Shown: positions 11,686-25,990 of the stretch, in pieces
How the letters are laid out: each line of letters starts with the position of its first letter
Position numbering within the stretch: the stretch's first letter is position 1
Assembly (NCBI GenBank): GCA_963205525.1
Contig: CAUJJP010000181.1
Coordinates: 1-31,995, forward strand
Reading direction: 5' to 3'
Origin: Pseudomonadota bacterium
GTDB lineage: Bacteria > Pseudomonadota > Gammaproteobacteria > Burkholderiales > Burkholderiaceae
Length of the DNA: 31,995 nt
Position numbers and translations under genes: made by a program
Notes under the pieces: model-generated
What the model was told of the DNA's origin: nothing
What the model saw: the letters and a program-made list of their open reading frames with translations, nothing else
Database searches by the model: none

Positions 11686-12057
11686 ATGAGTGAGCACGAC
11701 GAACACGCGGCCGGCGCGCGCCCGGTCATCCTGCCTTCGCTGGAGACGCCCACGCTCACCAAGGCCGACCTGGCGGAGCTGCTGTTCGACCGCCTGGGCC
11801 TGAACAAGCGCGAATCCAAGGACATGGTCGAGGCCTTCTTCGACATCGTCCACAGCGCCCTGGTCACGGGCGACGACGTCAAGCTCTCGGGCTTCGGCAA
11901 CTTCAACATCCGGCGCAAGGCACCGCGCCCGGGGCGCAACCCGCGCACCGGCGAGGCGATTCCCATCAAGGCCAGGCAGGTCGTTACCTTCCACGCCAGT
12001 CACAAGCTGAAGTCACTCGTGCAGGGCGACACAGTGGCCGCAGACGACTTCGAGTAA
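11686..12057 (+). CDS. ihfA: Integration host factor subunit alpha
   Basis: A 123-residue DNA-bending protein of the HU/IHF family that pairs with IHF beta and bends DNA at specific sites. The core is [30 protein letters not shown], followed by [26 protein letters not shown], which contains the beta-arm and the intercalating Pro. I chose ATG 11686, 6 nt after GAGGAGGG (11672-11679); ATG 11680 and GTG 11683 overlap or touch that site. The N-terminus is about 20 residues longer than the 99-residue enteric protein (acidic and Ala-rich), as in many Burkholderiales. The position right after pheT is conserved. Confidence 0.97.
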
Positions 12058-12091
12058 AGTCTGGAAGATCGCCTCGATCCCATTGATTTGA

Positions 12092-12508
12092 ATGGAGAAT
12101 CCGCTCCCGCCGATTCCCGCCAAGCGCTACTTCACGATCGGTGAGGTGAGCGAGCTCTGCGGCGTCAAGCCCTATGTGCTGCGTTACTGGGAGCAGGAGT
12201 TCACGCAACTCAAGCCCATGAAGCGCCGCGGCAACCGGCGCTACTACCAGCACCACGAGGTGCTGCTGGTGCGACGCATCCGCGAACTGCTGTACGACCA
12301 CGGCTTCACCATCAGCGGCGCGCGCAACCGGCTGACCGACCTCGGTGCACTGGCGCCGACCGCCGAGGACGCGAGCGAGATTGCAGACGCAGCGCGCGCT
12401 GCGCAGGAAGCCCTGCCGCCGATTGCAGCAGCCGCTGTCGCGCACGCGCTCGACGCACGCCAGCTGCGAGCCGAACTCGAAGCCATCCAGGCCTTGCTGC
12501 GGGTCTGA
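12092..12508 (+). CDS. MerR family transcriptional regulator
   Basis: A 138-residue protein with a MerR-type winged helix at residues 11-80: KRYFTIGEVSELCGVKPYVLRYWEQEF, then RRGNRRYYQHHEVLLVRRIRELL. The C-terminal half is Ala-rich and helical, with no cysteines placed for metal binding, so a metal sensor is unlikely. A MerR-like gene directly after ihfA is common in beta- and gammaproteobacteria, and its target is generally unknown. The gap to ihfA is 34 nt, so it is probably in the same transcript. The ribosome binding site is weak. Confidence 0.93.
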   Translation: MENPLPPIPAKRYFTIGEVSELCGVKPYVLRYWEQEFTQLKPMKRRGNRRYYQHHEVLLVRRIRELLYDHGFTISGARNRLTDLGALAPTAEDASEIADAARAAQEALPPIAAAAVAHALDARQLRAELEAIQALLRV

Positions 12509-12567
12509 TTGCGAAGGCCTTCTTCGGGAGGCGGGCGTGATCGCGGGAGGGAGCCGCGCGCTCAGGC

Positions 12568-12573
12568 TATACT
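12568..12573 (+). promoter_or_regulatory. -10 box of the tRNA-Pro promoter
   Basis: TATACT lies 11 nt before the tRNA and is followed by GCGCGC, the GC-rich discriminator typical of stable-RNA promoters. No good -35 hexamer is visible at the expected distance. Confidence 0.6.
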
Positions 12574-12583
12574 GCGCGCTTCA

Positions 12584-12661
<78 letters not shown>

Positions 12662-12668
12662 ATGAAAT

Positions 12669-12702
12669 CAACGGGTTAGCTCCGCAAGGAGCTAGCCCGT
12701 TG
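12669..12702 (+). terminator. 15-bp hairpin with GCAA tetraloop after tRNA-Pro
   Basis: The arms 12669-12683 and 12688-12702 pair over 15 positions (one T-G wobble) around a GCAA tetraloop, starting 8 nt after the tRNA. Placement suggests a tRNA terminator or processing structure. A proper T-tract is missing (TTGTCACG follows), so this is not a textbook intrinsic terminator. Confidence 0.7.
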
Positions 12703-13138
12703 TCACGTCTGGCGAGGACGCCACCGTCTGGTTGCCGTTCAGATGCCGTTCGCCGCTGGCTTTCGGGGTGCTTCCCCCGGCCCAATCCCGGCCTCACCGT
12801 GGGCATAACCCGGTCCCCACGCACGAGCGCTCAATCGCGCTGCGAACGACCCGCGATACTGCGCGCTTGGGAGTGGCTGTGCCCGGGGCCGCAGCCGTTG
12901 TGTTGTGTCCACGTTTGCGCTGGGTGTGCTTTGTCATCGGCGGCGCTGGCGTTCATGGCGTTGACCCGGCAGCCCGCGCCGGCTCTGTGCAGGCCAGCGG
13001 TCGCGCACGTCCTCGTGCTATCGCCATCGGTTGCGTCCTGGTGTATCCGACCGCTGGCCTGTGGTCGTAGACCGGGTCGGTTGTCCTCGGGCGCGGCAAG
13101 CGGAGTACGTGTCCAATCATCAAGAAGATCAGGGTGAG
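12703..13138. other. Gene-poor stretch between tRNA-Pro and the borosin-like precursor
   Basis: No convincing gene is present. The open frames crossing it (the longest from 12613 and 12732) have Arg/Pro/Ser-rich translations, no recognisable domain, and one begins inside the tRNA. The stretch presumably contains the promoter of the following operon; TTGTCC at 13081 with TACGTG at 13106 is at best a weak candidate. It may be degenerate insertion material next to the tRNA. Confidence 0.5.
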
Positions 13139-13357
13139 ATGGCGAAGCTGCTTGATCTGATGCGAAAGCTCGGCAGCGATGCCGCGTTGAACAGCGAGTA
13201 CGAGAGAAGCCCGGACGCGGTGATCGGCCGCTGGGGACTGTCTGCCGATGAACGCTGCGCCCTGCTGGCGAAGGACTACGACGCGATCAAGCGCCTCACC
13301 GGTCTGGAAGACGGGCAGTTCGCCACCAACCACACCGTGCGCGCCTACGACCAGTAG
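13139..13357 (+). CDS. Putative split-borosin precursor peptide (LigA-like fold)
   Basis: A 72-residue protein, MAKLLDLMRKLGSD... ending in FATNHTVRAYDQ. Residues about 4-55 (LMRKLGSDAALNSEYERSPDA, then VIGRWGLSADERCALLAKD, then AIKRLTG) have the helical pattern of the LigA-subunit-like domain. Bacterial split borosin precursors use this domain to dock on their backbone N-methyltransferase. The last 12-17 residues lie outside that domain and are the candidate core peptide. AGGGTGAG (13131-13138) precedes the ATG. The gene ends 33 nt before a protein with a borosin-type methyltransferase domain, which is the main reason for this call. The alternative is an orphan LigA-like domain without RiPP function. 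The family fold is seen by eye, not by search; methylation is inferred. Confidence 0.72.
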   Translation: MAKLLDLMRKLGSDAALNSEYERSPDAVIGRWGLSADERCALLAKDYDAIKRLTGLEDGQFATNHTVRAYDQ

Positions 13358-13390
13358 GCGAGTGGGCGGCCCGGGGCATCGAGCGCCGAC

Positions 13391-15886
13391 ATGTGCCGTT
13401 CCTGGCTCATCGCGCTGCTGTGGCTGGCTGGCATGCCGGTACTTGCCAGCGAGGCGCTGGAGCCGCAGGTTGCAGAGATCGAGCGGCTCGGTGTGGCGGC
13501 GCAGCGGCGCGAGGTCGAGGCCAAGATCCACGCACTGTCCCCCCAAACCGAGGCGCTGAGCCGGGAACAAAGGCAGCGCGTGGAGTACGTGCGCCTGCGC
13601 ATGGTGGGGCTGTCGGGCAACGAGATCGGCGCGGTCGCTGGCTTCAAGGTGCTGCTGCAGGAGGACCTCCCAGCGGCGCTGCGCATGCGTGCCTACGGCA
13701 CCGCCATCAGCCTCGCGGCGAATGTCGAGGAGTGGTCGCGGGCGTTCGGCTGGCTCGACGAGGCGCTGGCTCATCTGGACGAGGCACCGCAAGAGTCGGC
13801 GCGGCTGCTCGGCGTCGCAAGCTACGTGCACACCCTGGTCGGAGAGATCGGCAAGGCACGCGAGTTCGCGCTGCGCGAACTGGCCCTGGTCGAGAAGGGC
13901 GACGACGAACGTGCCCGCTGCATCGCCCTGAGCGACATCGCGATGGCCGAGGATCACGCGCGCAAGTTCGGCGAAGCCGAGCGTTGGCGCCGGCGCCAGA
14001 TCGAATCCTGCAACCGTGCGGGCGACATCATCTTCACCGCCAACGGCAAGTACGGGGTCGGGAAGATGCTGGCCGCGCAGGGGCACCACGAGGAGGCGCT
14101 GGGCTGGGCCGGGCAGGCGCTGGCGGATTTCGAGAAGGCCGGTTTCTCCGCAGGCGAGTGGAGCGCGCGGCTGGTGCTGGCCGGCAGCCTGATCGAGACA
14201 GACCGCGACCTCGATCGCGCCGGCCGGCTGCTGGGCGATGCCCTGCGCTACTACCGCCGACAAGAGGCCGATCTCGCGATCGCAGAAACCCAAGTGCTCC
14301 TGGCACGACTGGCCGAGAAGCGGGGCGATCTCCCTGGCGCACTGGCGCACCAAAGGCAGGCAGCCGCAGCGACGGCGTCTGCCGAGAGCGATGCGCGCGA
14401 GCGGCGGCTGGCCTATCTGCAAGTGCAGTTCGACACCCGCCTGAAGGAGCAGCAGATCGCGCTGCTGGAAGCGGAAAAGGAACTGGCCGCGCTACAGGTC
14501 ACGGCGACGCAGCGCCGCCAGTGGCTGATGTGGGTAGGCATGGGCGGGCTGCTGCTGACGGCGCTCCTCCTGTCGCTCCTGCTGCGGCGTTCGATCCGCG
14601 AGCGCCGACGCTACCGCTGGCAGTCCGAGCACGATGGCCTGACCCGCCTCTACAACTATCAGCAGGTGCGCAGGCTGGGCGAGGCCGCGTTCGCGCGGGC
14701 ACGCAGGCGAGGGTGGCCGTTCACCGCCATCGTCGCCGACGTCGACCGGTTCAAGGATGTGAACGACCATCACGGACATGCCGCCGGGGATGAGGCGCTG
14801 CGCTCGCTGGGGGCGTGGATCGCCGAGGTCGTCGGCGACCGCGGCATTGCCGGGCGCAGTGGCGGCGACGAGTTCACCATCCTGATCGAGGACGGCGCAG
14901 AGCAGGCCGAGGCGCTGCTGCAAGGGCTGCGCGAACGGATCGCGCCGATCCAGGTGTTCGGCAAGACGGTGCAGTTCAGCATCAGCTCCGGCGTGTGCGA
15001 GGCTGACGAGCAAGCGAGCACGCTGGAGCAACTGCTGCACGAGGCCGACCGGGCGCTGTACCGTGCCAAGCACGGCGGACGCAACCGCGTGGTACGAGCC
15101 GGCGGCGAGGCGCCAGGCTCGGATGGGCAGGCGCGCCTGGTCGTGGTGGGCAGCGGGATCGAGTTCGGCCGCCACGCCAGCGAGCGCTGCCTGTCAGAGA
15201 TCCGTGCGGCCGAGGTCGTGTTCTGCCTGGTGGATCCCTTCGCGCTGGCGATGATCCAGGGCTTGCGGCCAGACGCGATCAACCTGGGCCAGCACTATGC
15301 GCCCGGCAAAGACAGGCGCGAGACCTACCGCGAGATCGATGCCCGCATCATGGCCGAGCTGCGGGCCGGCAAGCACGTGTGCGCCGTCTTCTACGGTCAT
15401 CCGGGCGTGTTCGCCGACGTGCCCCACGCGGTGGTGCGCAAGGCGCGCGCCGAAGGGATCCCGGCGCGCATGGAGCCCGGGATCTCGGCCGAGGCCTGCC
15501 TCTACGCGAACCTCGGGCTGGACCCCGGCCGGCGCGGTGTGCAGTCGATGGAGGCGACCCATTTCCTGGTCTACGACCGCCAGCTCGACAGCGCCGGTCT
15601 GGTGCTGCTGTGGCAGGTGGCGCTGGCCGGCGACCTGACGTGCACACGGCTTCACGCCGAGCGCGAGGGCCTGCAGGCATTGGTGGACAGGCTGCTGCTC
15701 TGGTATCCGCCCGAGCACCAGGTGATCCTGTACGAAGCGGCGCGGCTGCCGATCCAGCCCCCGCGCATCGAGCACCTGGCCTTGCGCGACCTGCCCGAGG
15801 CCAGCTATGCCGAGTACACGACGCTGGTGATCCCGCCGCTGGGCGAGCTCGAGGAAGAGGTAGCGCTCGAGCCCGGAGGAGATTGA
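13391..15886 (+). CDS. TPR-like sensor / GGDEF / borosin-type alpha-N-methyltransferase fusion
   Basis: An 831-residue protein with an unusual domain order. Residues 1-20 are a signal peptide (cleavage after VLA), 21-375 a helical TPR-like periplasmic region, 378-400 a membrane helix. Next come a coiled linker and a GGDEF diguanylate cyclase with DVDRFKDVNDHHGH and an intact SGGDEF (491-495); the RxxD inhibitory site is absent (GDRG). Residues about 581-831 are a tetrapyrrole-methylase-fold domain with VVVGSGI and VCAVFYGHPGVF. Y636, R642, Y646 and Y668 have the exact spacing of Y66, R72, Y76 and Y98 of OphMA, the fungal borosin enzyme. GISAEACLYANLGLDPG follows. The protein would place the methyltransferase in the cytoplasm behind a periplasmic sensor. 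The adjacent precursor is its likely substrate. The ribosome binding site is weak, so coupling with the precursor gene is possible. Confidence 0.9.
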   Translation: MCRSWLIALLWLAGMPVLASEALEPQVAEIERLGVAAQRREVEAKIHALSPQTEALSREQRQRVEYVRLRMVGLSGNEIGAVAGFKVLLQEDLPAALRMRAYGTAISLAANVEEWSRAFGWLDEALAHLDEAPQESARLLGVASYVHTLVGEIGKAREFALRELALVEKGDDERARCIALSDIAMAEDHARKFGEAERWRRRQIESCNRAGDIIFTANGKYGVGKMLAAQGHHEEALGWAGQALADFEKAGFSAGEWSARLVLAGSLIETDRDLDRAGRLLGDALRYYRRQEADLAIAETQVLLARLAEKRGDLPGALAHQRQAAAATASAESDARERRLAYLQVQFDTRLKEQQIALLEAEKELAALQVTATQRRQWLMWVGMGGLLLTALLLSLLLRRSIRERRRYRWQSEHDGLTRLYNYQQVRRLGEAAFARARRRGWPFTAIVADVDRFKDVNDHHGHAAGDEALRSLGAWIAEVVGDRGIAGRSGGDEFTILIEDGAEQAEALLQGLRERIAPIQVFGKTVQFSISSGVCEADEQASTLEQLLHEADRALYRAKHGGRNRVVRAGGEAPGSDGQARLVVVGSGIEFGRHASERCLSEIRAAEVVFCLVDPFALAMIQGLRPDAINLGQHYAPGKDRRETYREIDARIMAELRAGKHVCAVFYGHPGVFADVPHAVVRKARAEGIPARMEPGISAEACLYANLGLDPGRRGVQSMEATHFLVYDRQLDSAGLVLLWQVALAGDLTCTRLHAEREGLQALVDRLLLWYPPEHQVILYEAARLPIQPPRIEHLALRDLPEASYAEYTTLVIPPLGELEEEVALEPGGD

Positions 15887-15904
15887 ACCTAGATCCGGCA
15901 GTTG
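15887..15904 (+). repeat. Left terminal inverted repeat of the MITE-like element
   Basis: This 18-bp sequence is the perfect reverse complement of 16104-16121. It starts at the base after the stop codon of the methyltransferase fusion. Confidence 0.9.
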
Positions 15905-16103
15905 GACGCGCCCGAGCGGGCTGCGCTGCGGTGCGCTGGCAAGGCGCGACGACGCGGCGGGCTGTAGCCCGCGAGGAGGAGCAACACCGCCAGCGCGCCG
16001 CAGCGTGGCTCGATCGGGTGCGTAGCGGGTTCACCCATGAGGTGGTCGGCGTCGACGCCACAAGTGCTTGAAAACACTGGGGAATCCTGCCCAGAAGAGC
16101 GGT

Positions 16104-16121
16104 CAACTGCCGGATCTAGGT
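16104..16121 (-). repeat. Right terminal inverted repeat of the MITE-like element
   Basis: This is the perfect inverted copy of 15887-15904. Downstream of it up to 16213, the minus strand has a short frame (about 16208 down to 16122, LYTIDSDRKAVGC...) that could be a gene remnant cut by the insertion. It is too short to call. Confidence 0.9.
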
Positions 16122-16213
16122 GGAATCTCAGGTCCATGTCCTGCATGTCCTGCTGCTGCAGCCCTTCGCAGCCGACGGCCTTGCGATCGCTGTCGATGGT
16201 GTACAGCACAAAT

Positions 16214-16247
16214 CTGTTGTTGCATACAGTACTGGATATGAATACAG
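16214..16247 (+). promoter_or_regulatory. Two adjacent LexA (SOS) boxes
   Basis: CTGTTGTTGCATACAG (16214-16229) fits CTGT-N8-ACAG exactly. CTGGATATGAATACAG (16232-16247), within TACTGGATATGAATACAGTT, matches 16 of 20 positions of the LexA consensus TACTGTATATATATACAGTA. The boxes are 2 bp apart and end 5 bp before a strong ribosome binding site, so they should repress whatever is transcribed from here until DNA damage. The AT-rich stretch stands out in this GC-rich sequence. Confidence 0.85.
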
Positions 16248-16265
16248 TTGCGAAAGGAGGTTGCC

Positions 16266-16349
16266 ATGAAGCACGTCTTTCGCCAGCACTACCACCCGCC
16301 GGTCCAGCTGCTGCCGTTGTGGCTGCAGCGTCTGTGGGCCTGGTTCTGA
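16266..16349 (+). CDS. Putative SOS-controlled 27-residue microprotein
   Basis: ATG at 16266 follows AAAGGAGG (16253-16260), one of the best ribosome binding sites in the window, at 5 nt spacing. The 27-codon frame begins MKHVFRQHYHPPVQ and ends LLPLWLQRLWAWF. The N-terminal half is rich in His and basic residues; the C-terminal half is hydrophobic with three Trp. Two LexA boxes directly upstream indicate damage-inducible expression. The size and amphipathic tail recall small SOS membrane peptides such as TisB, though there is no sequence likeness I can claim. It could also be a leader peptide of a lost downstream gene. Start and translation are well supported; function is unknown. Confidence 0.6.
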   Translation: MKHVFRQHYHPPVQLLPLWLQRLWAWF

Positions 16350-16385
16350 GCGCCCCAGGGTTGGGCTGCGCCCAGCGCTCGCTGA

Positions 16386-16420
16386 AGTGAAGAGCCCTTG
16401 GGGTGCCCCGGCGCTTCACT
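16386..16420 (+). terminator. Hairpin after the SOS microprotein
   Basis: AGTGAAG (16386-16392) pairs with CTTCACT (16414-16420), with an inner GGGG-TG-CCCC (16400-16409). It lies 36 nt after the microprotein stop and may end its transcript. No T-tract follows. From 16421 to 16509 I see nothing else. Confidence 0.45.
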
Positions 16421-16509
16421 GGCGCTCGCCCGCCCTCGGAACCGCTGGGATCGACGGAGCAATCCCGGTGATCAGGGCCGGTGGCTTAGGCGCCCGCTTC
16501 GGCCCCTGT

Positions 16510-17641: not shown

Positions 17642-18067
17642 ATGGACTCCCCCGTCCTCTGCGATCCCAGCGCCGCGACACCGACGCTGTCGACGACGAT
17701 CCGGCGCCGCCTGATGGAGCGCGTGGCCGATGCCGACACCTCGCACCTCACCATCGGCGCCGGCGAGGACGGCTGGAAGCCCTTCGCTGCCGGTGTCCAG
17801 ATCAAGCCGCTGCGCCGGCAGGGCGAGGTGCTGTCCTACCTGCTGCGCCTGCAGCCGGGCGCCAGGCTGCCGCCGCACCGGCACCCGCTGGACGAGGAGT
17901 GCGTGGTCCTGTCGGGCCGGCTGCAGGTCGGCACGCGGACCGAGGTCGGCCCCGGTGGCTACCACCTGGCGCTGGCCGGTGCGCTGCACGCGACGATATG
18001 CAGCGCGGGCGGGGCGACGATCTTCCTGCGCGGCGCGGTTCCGGATGCCAGCCAGGTGCTGGCCTGA
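17642..18067 (+). CDS. Cupin domain protein (ChrR-like)
   Basis: A 141-residue protein with a single cupin barrel. The metal-binding motif is PPHRHPLDEECVVLSG (HxH and Glu), with the second-motif His in GGYHLALAGALHATI. It closely resembles the C-terminal cupin of ChrR-type anti-sigma factors, which sense singlet oxygen or organic hydroperoxides. The N-terminal zinc anti-sigma domain (HxxxCxxC) is absent. The ATG at 17642 is chosen from the conserved start; the ribosome binding site is poor. It lies 40 nt before the ECF sigma gene, suggesting a sensor or accessory part of that sigma circuit. Confidence 0.88.
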   Translation: MDSPVLCDPSAATPTLSTTIRRRLMERVADADTSHLTIGAGEDGWKPFAAGVQIKPLRRQGEVLSYLLRLQPGARLPPHRHPLDEECVVLSGRLQVGTRTEVGPGGYHLALAGALHATICSAGGATIFLRGAVPDASQVLA

Positions 18068-18107
18068 AGCCATGTCTCATGTGATGGGCAGCCGATCGAG
18101 GGTCAGC

Positions 18108-18854
18108 ATGACGACGATCACCGACACGCCCGAGGACCCGGCGGCGGCGCCGATGGACGACGATGCGCTGTTTCCAGACGAGGTCGGCGATGCCGATGCG
18201 CCCCACGGCGACGCCGATGCGCCTGACGGCGAGGCGGACGGGCAGCCTGAGCCCGCAGCCGCCAGCCACGCCGTGGCGCGCGTGCCTGACGCGCAGCTGG
18301 CAGCCTGGATAGACGCCATCGTCGGGCGCGACGAGCGCGCGCTGGCGGCGCTGTACGACGCCACCTTCGCCAGCGTGTTCGGGCTCGTCAGGCGCATCGT
18401 GCGTGACCGCGCCACCGCCGAGGAGGTGGTGGAGGACAGCTACTTCCAGGTCTGGCGCCAGGCGCCGCGCTTCGACCCCGCGCGCGGCCATGCGCTGGGC
18501 TGGCTGCTTGCGATCGCCAGGTCGCGCGCGATCGATGCGCTGCGCCGCGGCGCTCGCTTCCAGCACGAGGCGCTCGACGAGGACAAGGCCTGCGAAGTCG
18601 CTGGCGATGACGCCGCGGCCGACGAATTGCTGGCGCTGGCGCGTCGGCGTGCCGATCTGCACCAGGCCCTGATGCTGCTGGGGGCGCAGCCGCGTCAGCT
18701 GGTTTCGCTGGCCTTCTTCCGTGGCCTCTCGCACGAGGAGATCGCGCAGCAGACGCAGATCCCGCTGGGCACCGTCAAGTCGCAGATCCGACGCGCCATG
18801 CTGTCCCTGCGCAGCAGCCTCGGCGAACACGGCGGACGGGTCCAGGCTGCCTGA
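18108..18854 (+). CDS. ECF-type RNA polymerase sigma factor
   Basis: A 248-residue sigma-70 family protein. Region 2 is LYDATFASVFGLVRRIVRDRATAEEVVEDSYFQVWRQAPRFDP, and region 4 is LSHEEIAQQTQIPLGTVKSQIRRAMLSLRSSL. The first 60 residues are an acidic, repetitive extension (DADAPHGDADAPDGEAD) not found in typical ECF factors of about 190 residues. I use ATG 18108, which has GAGGGT 6 nt upstream; ATG 18072 would add 12 residues. It lies between two cupin genes, the arrangement of the RpoE-ChrR group that drives photo-oxidative stress genes. Assignment to that ECF group is inferred from context. Confidence 0.92.
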   Translation: MTTITDTPEDPAAAPMDDDALFPDEVGDADAPHGDADAPDGEADGQPEPAAASHAVARVPDAQLAAWIDAIVGRDERALAALYDATFASVFGLVRRIVRDRATAEEVVEDSYFQVWRQAPRFDPARGHALGWLLAIARSRAIDALRRGARFQHEALDEDKACEVAGDDAAADELLALARRRADLHQALMLLGAQPRQLVSLAFFRGLSHEEIAQQTQIPLGTVKSQIRRAMLSLRSSLGEHGGRVQAA

Positions 18855-18892
18855 GCCCCGTCCCACCCACCCACGGAAAACCTGCACCGACC

Positions 18893-19837
18893 ATGGCCCG
18901 CGAATCCTTGCCAGACCCGCTGCCCGCAAGCGGACCGGACCCGAGGCCGGAAGCGGGGGCAGACCCGCGGGCAGAGCGCCTGCCGGTCGAGATCCTGGCG
19001 CCCTCCGATCCGGTCGAGCGCGACTTCGAGCCACTGTTCGGCGAGCCCTTCGCCAGCGCCTATACGGAGCAGCCGGCGGCGGCCGATGCCACCGTGTCGC
19101 AGGCCGCGGACGCCGCCTTGCCGGCCGCGCTGCGCAGCCGCCTGCTCGGGCGCGCCGCGGCCTCGCGTGCAGCGGCGGCGCCGATGTTCACCACCCGCAC
19201 CGGGCGGCTCGCGGCGTCGGCGCTGGCGCAGGGGGTGGGTGCCCGAACCCTGTACCAAGCCGCCGAACCCCGGCGCCCCGGCGAGCCGCATCGGGCCCGG
19301 CTGATCGACTTCGCTGCCGGCAGCCGTTGGGATGGTCCCGGCACCGGCCTGCAGCGCGAGTGGCTGCTGCTGCAGGGCAGCGTGCGCATCGGCGGTCGAC
19401 CGCTGCAGGCGCGCGACTACCGGATCGATCCGGCAGGGGTGGTCGCCGGTCCACTGGAGAGCGAGCACGGTGCCAGGCTCTTCCTGCGTGAGTCCGCGTT
19501 GCCGGTGGGCGCTGCGGTCTCGGCCTGTCTGGTGCGCGATGCGGACGCCGGCTGGCCGCCCTACGCACCCGGCATCCGGCGCCGCGTGCTGTGGCAGGCG
19601 GGCGGGCAGGCGGCCATGCTCTACCTGGCCGAGCCGGGTGCGGCGATCCCGCTGCACCGCCATGGGCACGACGAGGAGTGCCTGATGGTGCAGGGCGAGC
19701 TCTTCCTCGACGACGAACTCCTGCAGGCCGGCGACTACCAGCTCGCGCCCGCGGGCAGCAGCCACCGCCTCACGCAGACCGACACCGGGGTCGTGATCTA
19801 CGCCCACGGCGACCTGGACCTGCAGTTCGTGGCCTGA
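18893..19837 (+). CDS. Two-part cupin protein, probable ChrR-like regulator of the ECF factor
   Basis: A 314-residue protein. Residues 1-100 are Pro/Ala/Asp-rich and have no HxxxCxxC zinc motif. Residues about 95-205 resemble a cupin fold without metal ligands. Residues about 215-314 form a cupin with PLHRHGHDEECLMVQG and SSHRL, giving an HxHxxxE...H metal site. ChrR anti-sigma factors have a zinc domain then a cupin; here the zinc domain is replaced. If this is the anti-sigma factor it must hold sigma differently. It follows the ECF gene by 38 nt. It could instead be a dioxygenase-like enzyme. Confidence 0.85.
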   Translation: MARESLPDPLPASGPDPRPEAGADPRAERLPVEILAPSDPVERDFEPLFGEPFASAYTEQPAAADATVSQAADAALPAALRSRLLGRAAASRAAAAPMFTTRTGRLAASALAQGVGARTLYQAAEPRRPGEPHRARLIDFAAGSRWDGPGTGLQREWLLLQGSVRIGGRPLQARDYRIDPAGVVAGPLESEHGARLFLRESALPVGAAVSACLVRDADAGWPPYAPGIRRRVLWQAGGQAAMLYLAEPGAAIPLHRHGHDEECLMVQGELFLDDELLQAGDYQLAPAGSSHRLTQTDTGVVIYAHGDLDLQFVA

Positions 19838-22617: not shown

Positions 22618-23750
22618 TGGACGAGCACGAAGCGGCCGCCGCTGACGCGCGTCATGTACACCGGCCGCGCGGCCTCGCCCCAGCCATCGAAGGCCAGGGT
22701 CTGCTGCAGGCCCTCGAACTCCCGCAGGCGCAGCAAGGTGGCGGCCACGGACTCGCCGCTGCCTTGCTCGCGCAATGCGCGCAGCGCGATCGTGGCGGCG
22801 TCGTAGCCGGCGGCGGCGGCAAAGCCGGGGCTGCGGCCGAAGCGCTCGCGAAAGGCGTCGCGGAAGGCCAGGTAGCGCGGCGCGCGGCTGTCGCGGTCCA
22901 GGAACTGGGTCAGCGTGATGCCCTCGACGGCGGCGCCGCCCAGGGTCAGGAATTCCTCCGTCGCCGACCACTCCGAGGTCAGCACCGGCAGCGCCGGCGC
23001 GAACTTGCGCAGCGCCTGCGCCAGGCGGGCCGCGTCCACCGCGTTGCAGATCAGCAGCACCGCGTCCGGGCGGCTCGCCAGCGCGCGCTGCGCCACTGCG
23101 GGCAGCGCCAGGCTGGGGCTGAAGACATAGGCCTGCTCGTCGACCACCTGGCCGCCGTGGCGGGCGATCTGGGTGCCGAAGCCCTGGGCCCAGGTCTGGC
23201 TGTAGGCGCGGTTGCCGTCGTCGCGCAGGATCGCGAAACGGCGCAGCGCGGTGTGGCCGGCAAAGTACTCGGCGGCGCTGCGCGCGTACTGGTCGACCGA
23301 GGAGACGATGCGAAAGAAGTGGTCCTGGCGCCGACTGAGCTCGTTGGTCGTCACCGTCGGCGACAGCAGCAGCACGTCCAGCTCGGCTGCCAGCGGCAGC
23401 AGGGCGACGGCGATCGAGCTCGTCATCGGGCCGACCACCAGGCGATGCCCGGCCGCCGCGGCGGCGCGCAAGGCCTCCTGTGCGCGTGCCGGGTCCTGCT
23501 GGTCGTCGTAGACGTCGAGCTGCCACGGCTGGCCCTGCGCACTGGCTTGTTCGACGGCCAGCTGCACACCGTCGCGTCCGCCGACGCCGAGGTCGGCGGC
23601 GCGTCCGGTGAGGCCGCCCAGAAAGGCCAGGCGCCGGATCGGTGCGGCACAACCGCCGAGTCCGCCCAGCGTACCCCCTAGCCCAATGGCAAACCCGGAA
23701 CACGCCGCCAGCTGCATCCCGCACGCGGTCAGCCAGCGGCGGCGCTTCAC
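22614..23750 (-). CDS. Periplasmic solute-binding protein, branched-chain amino acid type
   Basis: A 378-residue type I periplasmic binding protein. After a signal peptide (VKRRRWLTACGMQLAACSGFAIG) there is a possible lipobox (LGGC) near residue 33. Family features are FLGGLTGRAADLGVGGRDGVQLAVEQ, VVGPMTSSIAVALLPLAAE, LLSPTVTTNELS, and ATIALRALREQG near the end. There is no ABC permease or ATPase next to it; instead it sits between a response regulator and a histidine kinase with 4-nt GTGA overlaps on both sides. This suggests it delivers a ligand signal to the kinase rather than importing it. The ligand is unknown. Confidence 0.92.
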   Translation of the reverse strand: MKRRRWLTACGMQLAACSGFAIGLGGTLGGLGGCAAPIRRLAFLGGLTGRAADLGVGGRDGVQLAVEQASAQGQPWQLDVYDDQQDPARAQEALRAAAAAGHRLVVGPMTSSIAVALLPLAAELDVLLLSPTVTTNELSRRQDHFFRIVSSVDQYARSAAEYFAGHTALRRFAILRDDGNRAYSQTWAQGFGTQIARHGGQVVDEQAYVFSPSLALPAVAQRALASRPDAVLLICNAVDAARLAQALRKFAPALPVLTSEWSATEEFLTLGGAAVEGITLTQFLDRDSRAPRYLAFRDAFRERFGRSPGFAAAAGYDAATIALRALREQGSGESVAATLLRLREFEGLQQTLAFDGWGEAARPVYMTRVSGGRFVLVQ

Positions 23751-25990
23751 GGCTGGCCCCCGGCGTGTGCCTGCAACCACTCGCGCAGGGCGTCGTCGGC
23801 GAGCGGCCGGGCGAACCAGAAGCCCTGGCCTTCGGCCACGCCCAGCGCCTGCAGATGCTGCGCCACGGCGGCGGTCTCTATGCCTTCGGCGATCGTGCGC
23901 AGGCCGAGCTTGTGGCCGAGCGAGGTGATCATCTCGGCGATCGGCGATTCGCCCCGCGTCTCGATCTGGTGCACGAAGCTGCGGTCTATCTTCAGGCGGT
24001 CGATCGGCAGCTCCGCCAGGTAGCTCAGCGAGGAATAGCCGGTGCCGAAGTCGTCCAGCGCGACCGACACGCCTTCGGCGCGCAACGCGGTGAGCTTGTT
24101 GCCCACCGTGTCCAGGCCCAGCATGGTCAGCGACTCGGTGATCTCCAGCTCCAGCTGCGCGGCGGGCAGCTGGTGCCGGTCGAGTGCGGCGAGCACGCGG
24201 GCGACGAAGTCGTGTTGCTGGAACTGGGCCACCGAGACGTTCACCGCCACTCTGGGCGGGGCCAGTCCATCGGCCGCCAGTGTCCGCATGCACAGGCAGG
24301 CGCTGTCCAGCACCCAGTCGCCCAGCGGCAGGATCAGCCCGGACTGCTCGGCCACCGGAATGAACTCGGTCGGCGGTACCAGGCGGCCGTCCTCGGTGCG
24401 CCAGCGCATCAAGGCCTCCATGCCGACCACGCCCCCGCTGGCCAGCTCCAGCTGCGGCTGGTAGACCACGAACAAGCGGGTGGCGGCGAACGCGGCCTGC
24501 AGATCCGACAGCAGCCTGGCGCGGCTGCGCGCCTGCTGGCCCAGGCTGGGCGTGAAGACGGTGAAGCGCCCGCGCTCGTGGCGCTTGGCGTGCTTGAGCG
24601 CGATGCTCACGTCCTTCAGCCAGCCCGACCCGTCCTGTACCCCCGGCACCAGGGTGGCAAAGGCGCTCGTCACCGACAGCTGCTGCGGCTGGCCTTGCAC
24701 GATCAGCGGCTCGGCGACGGTGGCGGCCACCTGCTGCGGCTCGATGCAATCGGCCGGGCCGAGCAGGCCAAAGGTGTTGCTGTTCATGCGCGAGACCACG
24801 ACCCGGGCGCCGAAATGGGTCTGCAGGCGCTGTGCGTAGGCGCGCAGCATGGCGTCGCCGTAGGCGTGGCCCATGAGGTCGTTGGTGGCGCCGAAGTCGT
24901 CCACGTCCAGCAGGGCCAGCGCGCTCAGGCTGCCGTTGTCCAGCGCCTGGCCGATGAGCTCGATCAGCCGCGTGCGGTTGGGCAGGCCGAGCAGGGGGTC
25001 GGCATAGGCCTGGCGGCGCAGCCGCCGCAGCAGGCCGGCCTGGCCGACCAGCGCCGCGATGTGGCTGCCCAGCGCCTGCAGCAGCGGCTGGCGGGTGCTC
25101 GAGGCCTCCGGCGCCGCAGCGATCCAGATCGCCAGCGCCTGCCCGTCGTAGGCTCCCAGGTACAGGGCGTCGCCGCCGCCATCCTTGCATGCCACGCTGC
25201 GCCTGTCTTGCACCGCCTGCAGCAGTGCGGCGCCGATCTGCGGTGGCAGGTCCGCCAGCGGCAGCCCGTACAAGGTGGCGTAGCGGCCCGCGGCGGCGGC
25301 GACCTGCGCCTGTTCAGGCGTCGCGCCGGCGCACACGAGCGCGTCCGTGGCGCTGCCCAGCAGGGCGCCAAAGCGTTCGAGCACGCCGTCGGCCAGCACC
25401 TGCAGGTCCTCGGCGTCCATCAGCTCGCGCCCGGACTGAACGATCAGCTCCAGCCCGCGGCGGCCGTCCTCGATGGTGCGGATCTGCTGGTAGGAACGCA
25501 GCGCCGTCACCACCGTGGTGAGCAGCCGGCGGTGCGTGAGCTCGGTCTTGCTGCGGTAGTCGTTGATGTCGTAGCGCAGCACCGATTCGTGCTCGGGCGC
25601 ATAGCCCGGCTGGCCGGTGCGCAGCACGATGCGGGTGGCGGCGAACTCGGGCTTCGCGCGCAGCTCGGCCACCAGCGCCAGGCCAGCGGCCTCGGTCTCC
25701 ATCACCACGTCCAGCAGGATCAGGGCGAGGTCCTTGCAGCGCTGCGCCAGCGCGCGTGCCTCGGCGGCGGAATAGGCACTGAGCAGCTCCAGCGGCCGGC
25801 CGAGCAGCACCTGGCCATCGAGCGCGAAGCGGGTCGCCTGGTGCACGTCGGGGTCGTCGTCGACCACGAGCACCCGCCACGGAGGCGCCGCCTGCGCCTG
25901 CGCCGGGCCGGCTTCGGGCTCGTCGACGAAGGTGAGCGTCGGGTCGGACTCGGGCATCGCGGCGGGGATGAATCTGTCCGCGGCCATCAT
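23747..25990 (-). CDS. Response regulator REC-DUF3369-(degenerate GGDEF)-EAL, c-di-GMP phosphodiesterase
   Basis: A 747-residue protein. The REC domain (about 38-165) has the acidic pocket VVDDDPD and phosphoacceptor D94 (ILLDVVM). A DUF3369-type domain follows (about 165-330; ELTHRRLLTTVVTALRSYQQIRTIEDGRRGLELI). The GGDEF domain is degenerate: the motif reads NSNTF (403-407), so cyclase activity is excluded. The EAL domain is intact: MEALMRW (E525), EITES, DDFGTGYSSLSYL, IDRSFV and AEGIET. It should hydrolyse c-di-GMP when phosphorylated by the kinase of the operon. It starts at ATG 25990 (or 25987). The gene is first of the three-gene signalling unit and overlaps the binding-protein gene by 4 nt. 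Confidence 0.95.
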   Translation of the reverse strand: MMAADRFIPAAMPESDPTLTFVDEPEAGPAQAQAAPPWRVLVVDDDPDVHQATRFALDGQVLLGRPLELLSAYSAAEARALAQRCKDLALILLDVVMETEAAGLALVAELRAKPEFAATRIVLRTGQPGYAPEHESVLRYDINDYRSKTELTHRRLLTTVVTALRSYQQIRTIEDGRRGLELIVQSGRELMDAEDLQVLADGVLERFGALLGSATDALVCAGATPEQAQVAAAAGRYATLYGLPLADLPPQIGAALLQAVQDRRSVACKDGGGDALYLGAYDGQALAIWIAAAPEASSTRQPLLQALGSHIAALVGQAGLLRRLRRQAYADPLLGLPNRTRLIELIGQALDNGSLSALALLDVDDFGATNDLMGHAYGDAMLRAYAQRLQTHFGARVVVSRMNSNTFGLLGPADCIEPQQVAATVAEPLIVQGQPQQLSVTSAFATLVPGVQDGSGWLKDVSIALKHAKRHERGRFTVFTPSLGQQARSRARLLSDLQAAFAATRLFVVYQPQLELASGGVVGMEALMRWRTEDGRLVPPTEFIPVAEQSGLILPLGDWVLDSACLCMRTLAADGLAPPRVAVNVSVAQFQQHDFVARVLAALDRHQLPAAQLELEITESLTMLGLDTVGNKLTALRAEGVSVALDDFGTGYSSLSYLAELPIDRLKIDRSFVHQIETRGESPIAEMITSLGHKLGLRTIAEGIETAAVAQHLQALGVAEGQGFWFARPLADDALREWLQAHAGGQP

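Follow-up and report, generated by a model that had tools for sequence, protein, structure and literature searches.

A split-borosin methyltransferase fused to a tetratricopeptide-GGDEF sensor: a candidate peptide-signalling cassette

Organization of the locus

The 31,995-nucleotide contig CAUJJP010000181.1, from a member of the Burkholderiaceae and referred to here at its full length as the window, contains two adjacent genes on a common strand that are separated by 33 nucleotides. The first encodes a small precursor-like protein (P0001) and the second a larger protein (P0002) in which a tetratricopeptide repeat (TPR) sensor, a membrane segment and a GGDEF domain are joined to a methyltransferase of the borosin type, borosins being ribosomally synthesized and post-translationally modified peptides (RiPPs). 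A preliminary description of this DNA had proposed that a signal peptide, a TPR region, a membrane helix, an intact GGDEF domain and a methyltransferase are united in this one protein, and such an arrangement was confirmed by Pfam, hydropathy and AlphaFold2 (Table 1). The pair is considered below as a possible signalling cassette in which a methylated peptide would control the synthesis of cyclic di-GMP (c-di-GMP).

Table 1. Positions of features in the window
Feature	Position	Strand	Basis
P0001, 72 residues, SonA-type precursor-like small protein	13139..13357	+	Reading frame, homology
Borosin-binding domain, P0001 residues 3-54, five predicted helices	13145..13300	+	AlphaFold2, Foldseek
Predicted core, P0001 residues 61-70 (FATNHTVRAY), expected methylation region	13319..13348	+	Homologue conservation
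P0002, 831-residue TPR-transmembrane-GGDEF-methyltransferase fusion	13391..15886	+	Reading frame, Pfam, AlphaFold2
Predicted signal peptide, approximately residues 1-20 of P0002	13391..13450	+	Hydropathy peak 6-23
TPR alpha-solenoid sensor, P0002 residues 24-310, predicted periplasmic	13460..14320	+	AlphaFold2 helix pairs, homology to unfused sensors
Transmembrane segment, P0002 residues 377-399	14519..14587	+	Hydrophobic segment in 114/114 full-length fused sequences
GGDEF diguanylate cyclase domain (predicted), P0002 residues 413-566; GGDEF motif 14861-14875	14627..15088	+	PF00990 E 6.9e-34
SonM-type alpha-N-methyltransferase (predicted), P0002 residues 581-820	15131..15850	+	SonM homology, PF00590, Foldseek
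Catalytic codon starts	Y636 15296, R642 15314, Y646 15326, Y668 15392	+	Alignment to SonM
tRNA-Pro(GGG), context only	12585..12661	+	5' of the P0001/P0002 pair

The methyltransferase domain and the precursor-like protein

Searches of the PDB with the methyltransferase part of P0002 returned SonM chains with an E value of 4e-67 and OphMA chains with 2.5e-40, and identity to SonM extended to 116 of 244 aligned residues. Pfam assigned the domain to TP_methylase (PF00590, E 1.7e-17). The sequences on which the preliminary description had relied (VVVGSGI, VCAVFYGHPGVF and GISAEACLYANLGLDPG) were all present in P0002, and Y636, R642, Y646 and Y668 have the same 6/4/22 spacing as OphMA Y66, R72, Y76 and Y98, as it had claimed; these OphMA residue numbers are also found in the PDB titles of OphA mutants. 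The four residues align with SonM Y58, R67, Y71 and Y93 and did not vary in any of the 120 aligned proteins, comprising P0002 and 119 listed homologues, with P0003, the window's own protein, left out. Passages of PMC8429565 describe catalytic or top-lock and bottom-lock roles for the SonM residues compared here: Y58, R67, Y71, Y93, F99, E146, W166 and Q167 are retained in P0002, and E173 is replaced by D748. The AlphaFold2 model of P0002 has a mean pLDDT (predicted local distance difference test) of 77.8, with the TPR part mostly at 85-96 and methyltransferase residues 712-732 and 742-756 below 50; for the methyltransferase domain, the sequence evidence therefore outweighs the model.

P0001 had been described as a LigA-like protein of 72 residues. 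Its size is confirmed. The Pfam match to LigA is weak and under the cut-off (E 0.018); P0001 matched SonA, the SonM substrate, with an E value of 1.5e-5 as a single sequence and 1e-11 as a 28-sequence profile. Homologues numbered 163 at E <= 0.001. The AlphaFold2 model (mean pLDDT 72.8) is a five-helix bundle (residues 3-13, 15-23, 25-32, 36-43 and 47-54) with a free, disordered tail, and according to passages of PMC8429565 the SonA leader is likewise a five-helix bundle. A Foldseek search with this model gave SonA chains in all of the top 29 rows, with template modelling scores to the query of 0.53-0.71 and a best E value of only 0.011.

In P0001 and 120 listed close homologues, chosen by similarity, conservation of the tail matches that of the fold: F61 was found in 120 of the 121 sequences, T63 in 112, N64 in 117, H65 in 121 and Y70 in 119. 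Across 33 fused loci, the NH pair of the core is kept in 23, and the remainder vary (e.g. YANNTTIKAY and AIQVTITAY). The methylated residues of SonA are L63 and I65 (PMC11285071). By ungapped extension of the SonA alignment these correspond to T63 and H65 of P0001, which may by inference be its methylated sites.

An enzyme homologous to SonM and OphMA that retains the catalytic residues, beside a separate, adjacent five-helix precursor with a C-terminal core, is what is expected of a split borosin, as is backbone alpha-N-methylation of the precursor, which is predicted here. Such a reading of the locus, already favoured in the preliminary description, is supported by the PDB search, the catalytic residues, the precursor profile, the predicted folds and the neighbourhoods of relatives. 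In the strict sense a type IV enzyme is a stand-alone methyltransferase of approximately 263 residues, and the domain analysed here is the C-terminal part of an 831-residue protein; many unfused relatives are stand-alone methyltransferases. Given that Pfam names TP_methylase and (weakly) LigA, the C-terminal domain could be thought to be a tetrapyrrole methylase of a different kind, lying beside an unrelated LigA-like protein. The PDB sequence search placed SonM far ahead of the best precorrin methylase (E 0.005), and this, together with the retained catalytic residues and the match of P0001 to SonA by both profile and predicted fold, makes that explanation extremely unlikely.

TPR sensors in fused and unfused relatives

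The sensor half of P0002 was compared with those of its relatives. Of 114 full-length fused sequences, 111 have a hydrophobic stretch at the N terminus. Pfam reported TPR_12 (E 8.5e-5) at 23.1 bits, under the 30.1-bit cut-off, and unfused relatives have a sensor domain homologous to this TPR domain. Residues 314-413 form one long helix in the AlphaFold2 model, within which the membrane segment lies. In the GGDEF domain, the nine positions of the catalytic site (metal and nucleotide) were invariant in 120 of 120 aligned fused proteins. Fused cyclases are mostly of the GGDEF type and lack the RxxD product-inhibition site (GGDEF in 118 and GGEEF in 2 of 120; RxxD in 0/120), and the unfused cyclases carry GGEEF (82/82) and usually retain RxxD (73/82). 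The RxxD site is common in diguanylate cyclases and is not required. P0002 carries the motifs of a diguanylate cyclase, and c-di-GMP synthesis is predicted from them.

A search for proteins matching the methyltransferase part of P0002 gave 316, of which 120 were listed; all 120 carry GGDEF and TP-methylase domains, under names from Rubrivivax, Luteimonas, Pseudoxanthomonas and others. As only proteins of similar total length were admitted, stand-alone methyltransferases could not appear among these matches. The preliminary description had proposed searching genomes for the same domain order beside LigA-like genes, and 33 fused loci were recovered, the window's own included, each with a same-strand precursor 5' of the fusion gene. 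Their methyltransferase domains form one clade (support 0.969; FastTree, midpoint-rooted), with L185 and L244-L246 as its sister group (support 1.0). These four loci all begin with a precursor, a TPR-kinase and a methyltransferase, followed in L185 by a TPR-GGDEF gene and in L245 by a second precursor and kinase. Read-through from an operon of precursor, TPR-kinase and methyltransferase would, we infer, yield a protein of the P0002 type. Among the 299 genomes of the family to which Rubrivivax genome G001 belongs, the methyltransferase was found in 2, G001 itself and that of L193, which lacks a sensor; such scarcity fits horizontal transfer into Rubrivivax.

In unfused relatives the same parts are separate genes. 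In Lysobacter penaei (L002), for example, the methyltransferase, the precursor and a TPR-transmembrane-GGDEF protein are encoded by neighbouring genes. The methyltransferase was found in 132 of 395 Lysobacteraceae genomes (139 matches: 31 of the fused type, 30 of which were analysed further, and 108 unfused, 89 of which were). A downstream same-strand GGDEF gene was present in the fetched flank of 82 of the 89 unfused loci, and in 81 of these it includes the homologous TPR domain, the exception, L083, being broken in frame. The other seven have no sensor gene, and two of them lie at contig ends. The position of the sensor relative to the unfused methyltransferase is specific: within 3 kb, a GGDEF gene lies downstream on the same strand in 78/84 loci, downstream on the opposite strand in 11/84, upstream on the same strand in 5/87 and upstream on the opposite strand in 1/87. 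An iterated profile applied at a lenient threshold (E <= 0.05) detected precursor-like proteins at 113 of the 122 loci, counting both fused and unfused ones.

Wider sampling gave a similar picture. Altogether 205 methyltransferases were labelled, 33 of them fused, and a same-strand TPR sensor lies within 3.5 kb of 156 of the 172 unfused ones, in a set that consists mostly of chosen relatives and is no random sample (L273 repeats L210, and near-identical genomes were kept). Matches were found in 47 of the 118 genomes of the G741 family. Of 37 stretches fetched from 62 rows, a same-strand TPR sensor is present in 35; the sensor of L227 is divergent, and L238 has none. With SonM as the query, 61 of 247 genomes matched, and a same-strand TPR sensor was present at 30/30 of the loci returned, a set limited to 30 rows. 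At a locus encoding a protein 92% identical to SonM and a closely similar SonA, a complete TPR-GGDEF gene directly follows SonA (L277 338-2125; Pfam GGDEF E 3.6e-38, with TPR repeats under the cut-off). In a class-wide draw, the methyltransferase was found in 10 of 369 genomes, and a TPR sensor adjoins it in four of these (the genome of L002; L184, GGDEF; L185, kinase and GGDEF; L186, kinase). The rule therefore covers SonM-like enzymes and not every borosin methyltransferase. Two further arrangements were seen. A tandem pair of methyltransferase genes lies within one sensor locus in L216, L237 and L239, and beside a sensor-less methyltransferase in L144 (5851-6333, +) a precursor-like protein with several YFCxxxTPE-like core repeats looks multi-core.

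Distribution of the sensor itself was assessed with the TPR domain of the unfused sensor in L091. It was found in 57 of 149 Lysobacteraceae genomes, all 57 of which are methyltransferase-positive, and the TPR sensor looks dedicated to methyltransferase carriers. Up to G150, five carriers gave no L091-type match (G025, G046, G137, G113 and G117), of which G025 alone was named among the misses, so that it is uncertain whether all five were drawn; the loci of G025, G046 and G137 have no sensor gene, and G113 and G117 have fused proteins, perhaps too divergent for the L091 query to match. Beside a precursor and a TPR domain, the sensor output is either GGDEF or a hybrid histidine kinase, the latter identified by Pfam in L185, L186, L243 and L244 and by an L185 plus L186 profile in L239, L241, L242, L245 and L246. 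Some loci hold more than one sensor. Their order is methyltransferase, precursor, sensor, precursor, sensor in L053, L081 and L212, and precursor, sensor, methyltransferase, precursor, sensor in L245; in all four, each sensor has its own precursor and the methyltransferase is single. Eight sensors were located away from a methyltransferase gene, and three of these (L283, L284 and L286) have an adjoining precursor of their own. At L101, L080, L106, L157 and L226, two or three consecutive precursors precede one TPR-GGDEF gene.

These observations bear on whether the locus is an ordinary RiPP pathway, in which the methylated peptide would be secreted as a bioactive compound, with the TPR-GGDEF protein sensing some other input and merely coordinating production with biofilm state. 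The family has been named and studied as one of RiPP biosynthesis (passages of PMC8429565), the cores of unfused loci are mostly hydrophobic and variable with acidic tails, and the core also varies at approximately 10 of the 33 fused loci, all of which is consistent with such a role. It is nevertheless considered improbable, given the conservation of the core among close homologues of P0001, the pairing of sensors with precursors at tandem loci, the restriction of the L091-type TPR domain to methyltransferase carriers and the lack of a shared exporter among the neighbours described below.

The genes around the cassettes were checked by Pfam because clustering of open reading frames (ORFs) was crowded with shadow ORFs; 22 proteins beside 12 cassettes were covered. 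Only one of them, in L142, is of the transport type, a ShlB-type outer-membrane secretion protein. A same-strand S66 LD-carboxypeptidase gene lies directly 5' of the precursor in L121 (4319-6268, -) and L127 (8868-9908, -), and an S66 ORF cluster covers 13 of the 33 fused loci. In the window, pheS, an IHF/HU-type gene, a MerR-type gene and the tRNA-Pro gene precede P0001 and P0002 on the + strand. A tRNA-borne island was rejected, as the final 12 to 18 bases of the tRNA-Pro gene have no second copy in the window. A plasmid-borne unit was also rejected: no plasmid record contains 80% of P0002 in one place, and plasmid nucleotide matches to positions 11900-16500 span only 64-80 bases, at the tRNA. 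Elsewhere in the window are a second c-di-GMP protein, a response regulator that contains DUF3369, GGDEF and EAL domains (23747-25990, -), and a likely sigma/anti-sigma pair composed of an ECF-type sigma factor and, after it, a ChrR-type cupin protein (17730-19837, +).

A possible signalling role and comparison with known systems

Many relatives keep the same parts adjacent, and P0001 is therefore likely to be methylated and is predicted to be a signal for the sensor rather than an antibiotic. In the mechanism envisaged, residues 3-54 of P0001 would dock on the methyltransferase as SonA does on SonM, and backbone nitrogens around residues 61-70 would then be methylated; by analogy with the solved SonM-SonA case, docking and backbone methylation are very probable. 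The tail, or a fragment of it, would cross the membrane via general machinery and bind the TPR domain, which is predicted to lie on the periplasmic side, and the long helix 314-413 would switch the GGDEF dimer and so set c-di-GMP synthesis. Regulation of the TPR sensor by the modified tail is suggested by the linkage of the genes, the exchange of output domains and the pairing of precursors with sensors, and is given slightly less than an even chance. The cassette as a whole, in which the methyltransferase would modify the P0001 tail and the tail would regulate the sensor and hence c-di-GMP, is likewise a tentative reading of the sequences, held with confidence just short of even. The fusion would unite a sensor and the producer of its own signal in one protein. 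More generally, split borosins of the SonM-SonA kind may be peptide-signalling systems, in which N-methylated peptides from dedicated precursors, made with shared methyltransferases, address membrane TPR receptors with c-di-GMP or phosphorelay outputs, receptor and enzyme being fused in Luteimonas- and Rubrivivax-type bacteria. This broader proposal is plausible but, on balance, somewhat doubtful.

Several observations weigh against a signalling role. No secretion signal is obvious by eye in P0001 or the other precursors, and no shared exporter, protease or other partner was found by Pfam among the 22 proteins beside 12 cassettes. The peptidases near cassettes differ by locus (M1, aspartyl and S66), each occurring in one or two loci. 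Given the lack of both a secretion signal and a shared exporter, the route of the tail to a periplasmic TPR domain is the main gap in the scheme. The P0001 tail also lacks the hydrophobic character typical of most unfused cores. Among unfused methyltransferases, 16 of 172 lack a same-strand sensor in reach; of these, 2 lie at contig ends, 1 has a divergent sensor and 13 fit neither description. In the class-wide draw no TPR sensor lies beside the gene in 6 of 10 carriers (L187-L192, which are weaker matches). No precursor was detected beside five of the eight sensors located away from a methyltransferase (L282, L287, L289, L293 and L294; all TPR-GGDEF), and the separation of L283 and L286 may be an assembly effect, as both are near contig ends. 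In favour of the cassette, the correlation between core and sensor divergence is suggestive only: with 76 of 77 single-set loci kept, partial correlations of core divergence were 0.187 for the TPR domain (1 of 499 permutations as high), 0.214 for GGDEF (0 of 499) and 0.031 for the methyltransferase (154 of 499), values that are small, leave TPR and GGDEF unseparated and are inflated by relatedness and gene adjacency.

A rival explanation is a cytoplasmic switch acting through the methyltransferase dimer. Here, P0001 would stay inside the cell, its docking or methylation would reshape the GGDEF (or kinase) dimer, and the level of S-adenosylmethionine or precursor would set c-di-GMP. GGDEF domains act as dimers, the linker between the end of the GGDEF domain (566) and the start of the methyltransferase (~581) is short, and the precursor has no visible secretion signal. 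SonM-SonA is, moreover, a dimer of heterodimers (passages of PMC8429565). This is a serious rival, if a less likely one. Against it, unfused relatives encode the methyltransferase separately, their sensors retain the TPR domain while the output alternates between GGDEF and histidine kinase, and three sensors have a precursor and no methyltransferase gene in the stretch seen (two of them near contig ends).

Should methylated peptides be the ligands of TPR receptors, as in the signalling cassette preferred here, a presumed class of natural products would become a signalling system, and c-di-GMP signalling would gain a ribosomal, backbone-methylated input. The question is immediately testable in Shewanella oneidensis, where enzyme and precursor have been solved and a close relative has an adjoining receptor gene. 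In the literature passages searched, no function is stated for bacterial split borosins. SO1480 was not found in the literature searched, and the paper found names SO1478 and SO1479 only. The preliminary description had known of no described system with this fusion. A GGDEF domain is in fact listed among borosin architectures in the Figure 1 legend of PMC11395268, the sole paper found in the literature search for borosin with GGDEF, and, judged by that legend alone, the link between GGDEF and borosins is probably not new. No paper was found for borosin with tetratricopeptide or c-di-GMP, in a search that did not include the papers defining types V-X and 0, nor for TPR-GGDEF in the literature search. 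The TPR-receptor pattern was not found in print, nor were the kinase outputs or the precursor-sensor pairing; all three may be noted in papers beyond the search.

Several known systems resemble the cassette in part. TPR solenoids are peptide readers in the RRNPP receptors (Rap, PlcR and PrgX), as is proposed for P0002. RRNPP receptors are cytoplasmic proteins of Gram-positive bacteria with DNA-binding or phosphatase outputs. Compared by description, P0002 differs in having a membrane GGDEF output (a kinase in relatives), a predicted signal peptide and no helix-turn-helix domain by Pfam; it is thus predicted to be neither a cytoplasmic TPR protein nor one with a helix-turn-helix or phosphatase output. 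The architecture in PMC11395268 is similar in placing GGDEF within a borosin type, a comparison made by the legend only. OphMA and the other fused fungal borosin enzymes share a homologous methyltransferase with identically spaced Y/R/Y/Y residues, but OphMA bears its own core. In the present locus the core belongs to P0001, and the additional domains of P0002 are those of a predicted signalling receptor. A further related system is the type IV SonM-SonA pair of Shewanella oneidensis (passages of PMC8429565), which has a homologous enzyme with the same catalytic and most of the same lock residues and a five-helix precursor with a tail. By contrast with that pair, sensor and methyltransferase are one protein here, the precursor precedes the fusion, the GGDEF domain of P0002 lacks the RxxD site, and the P0001 tail reads ATNHTVRAY in place of the hydrophobic SonA core.

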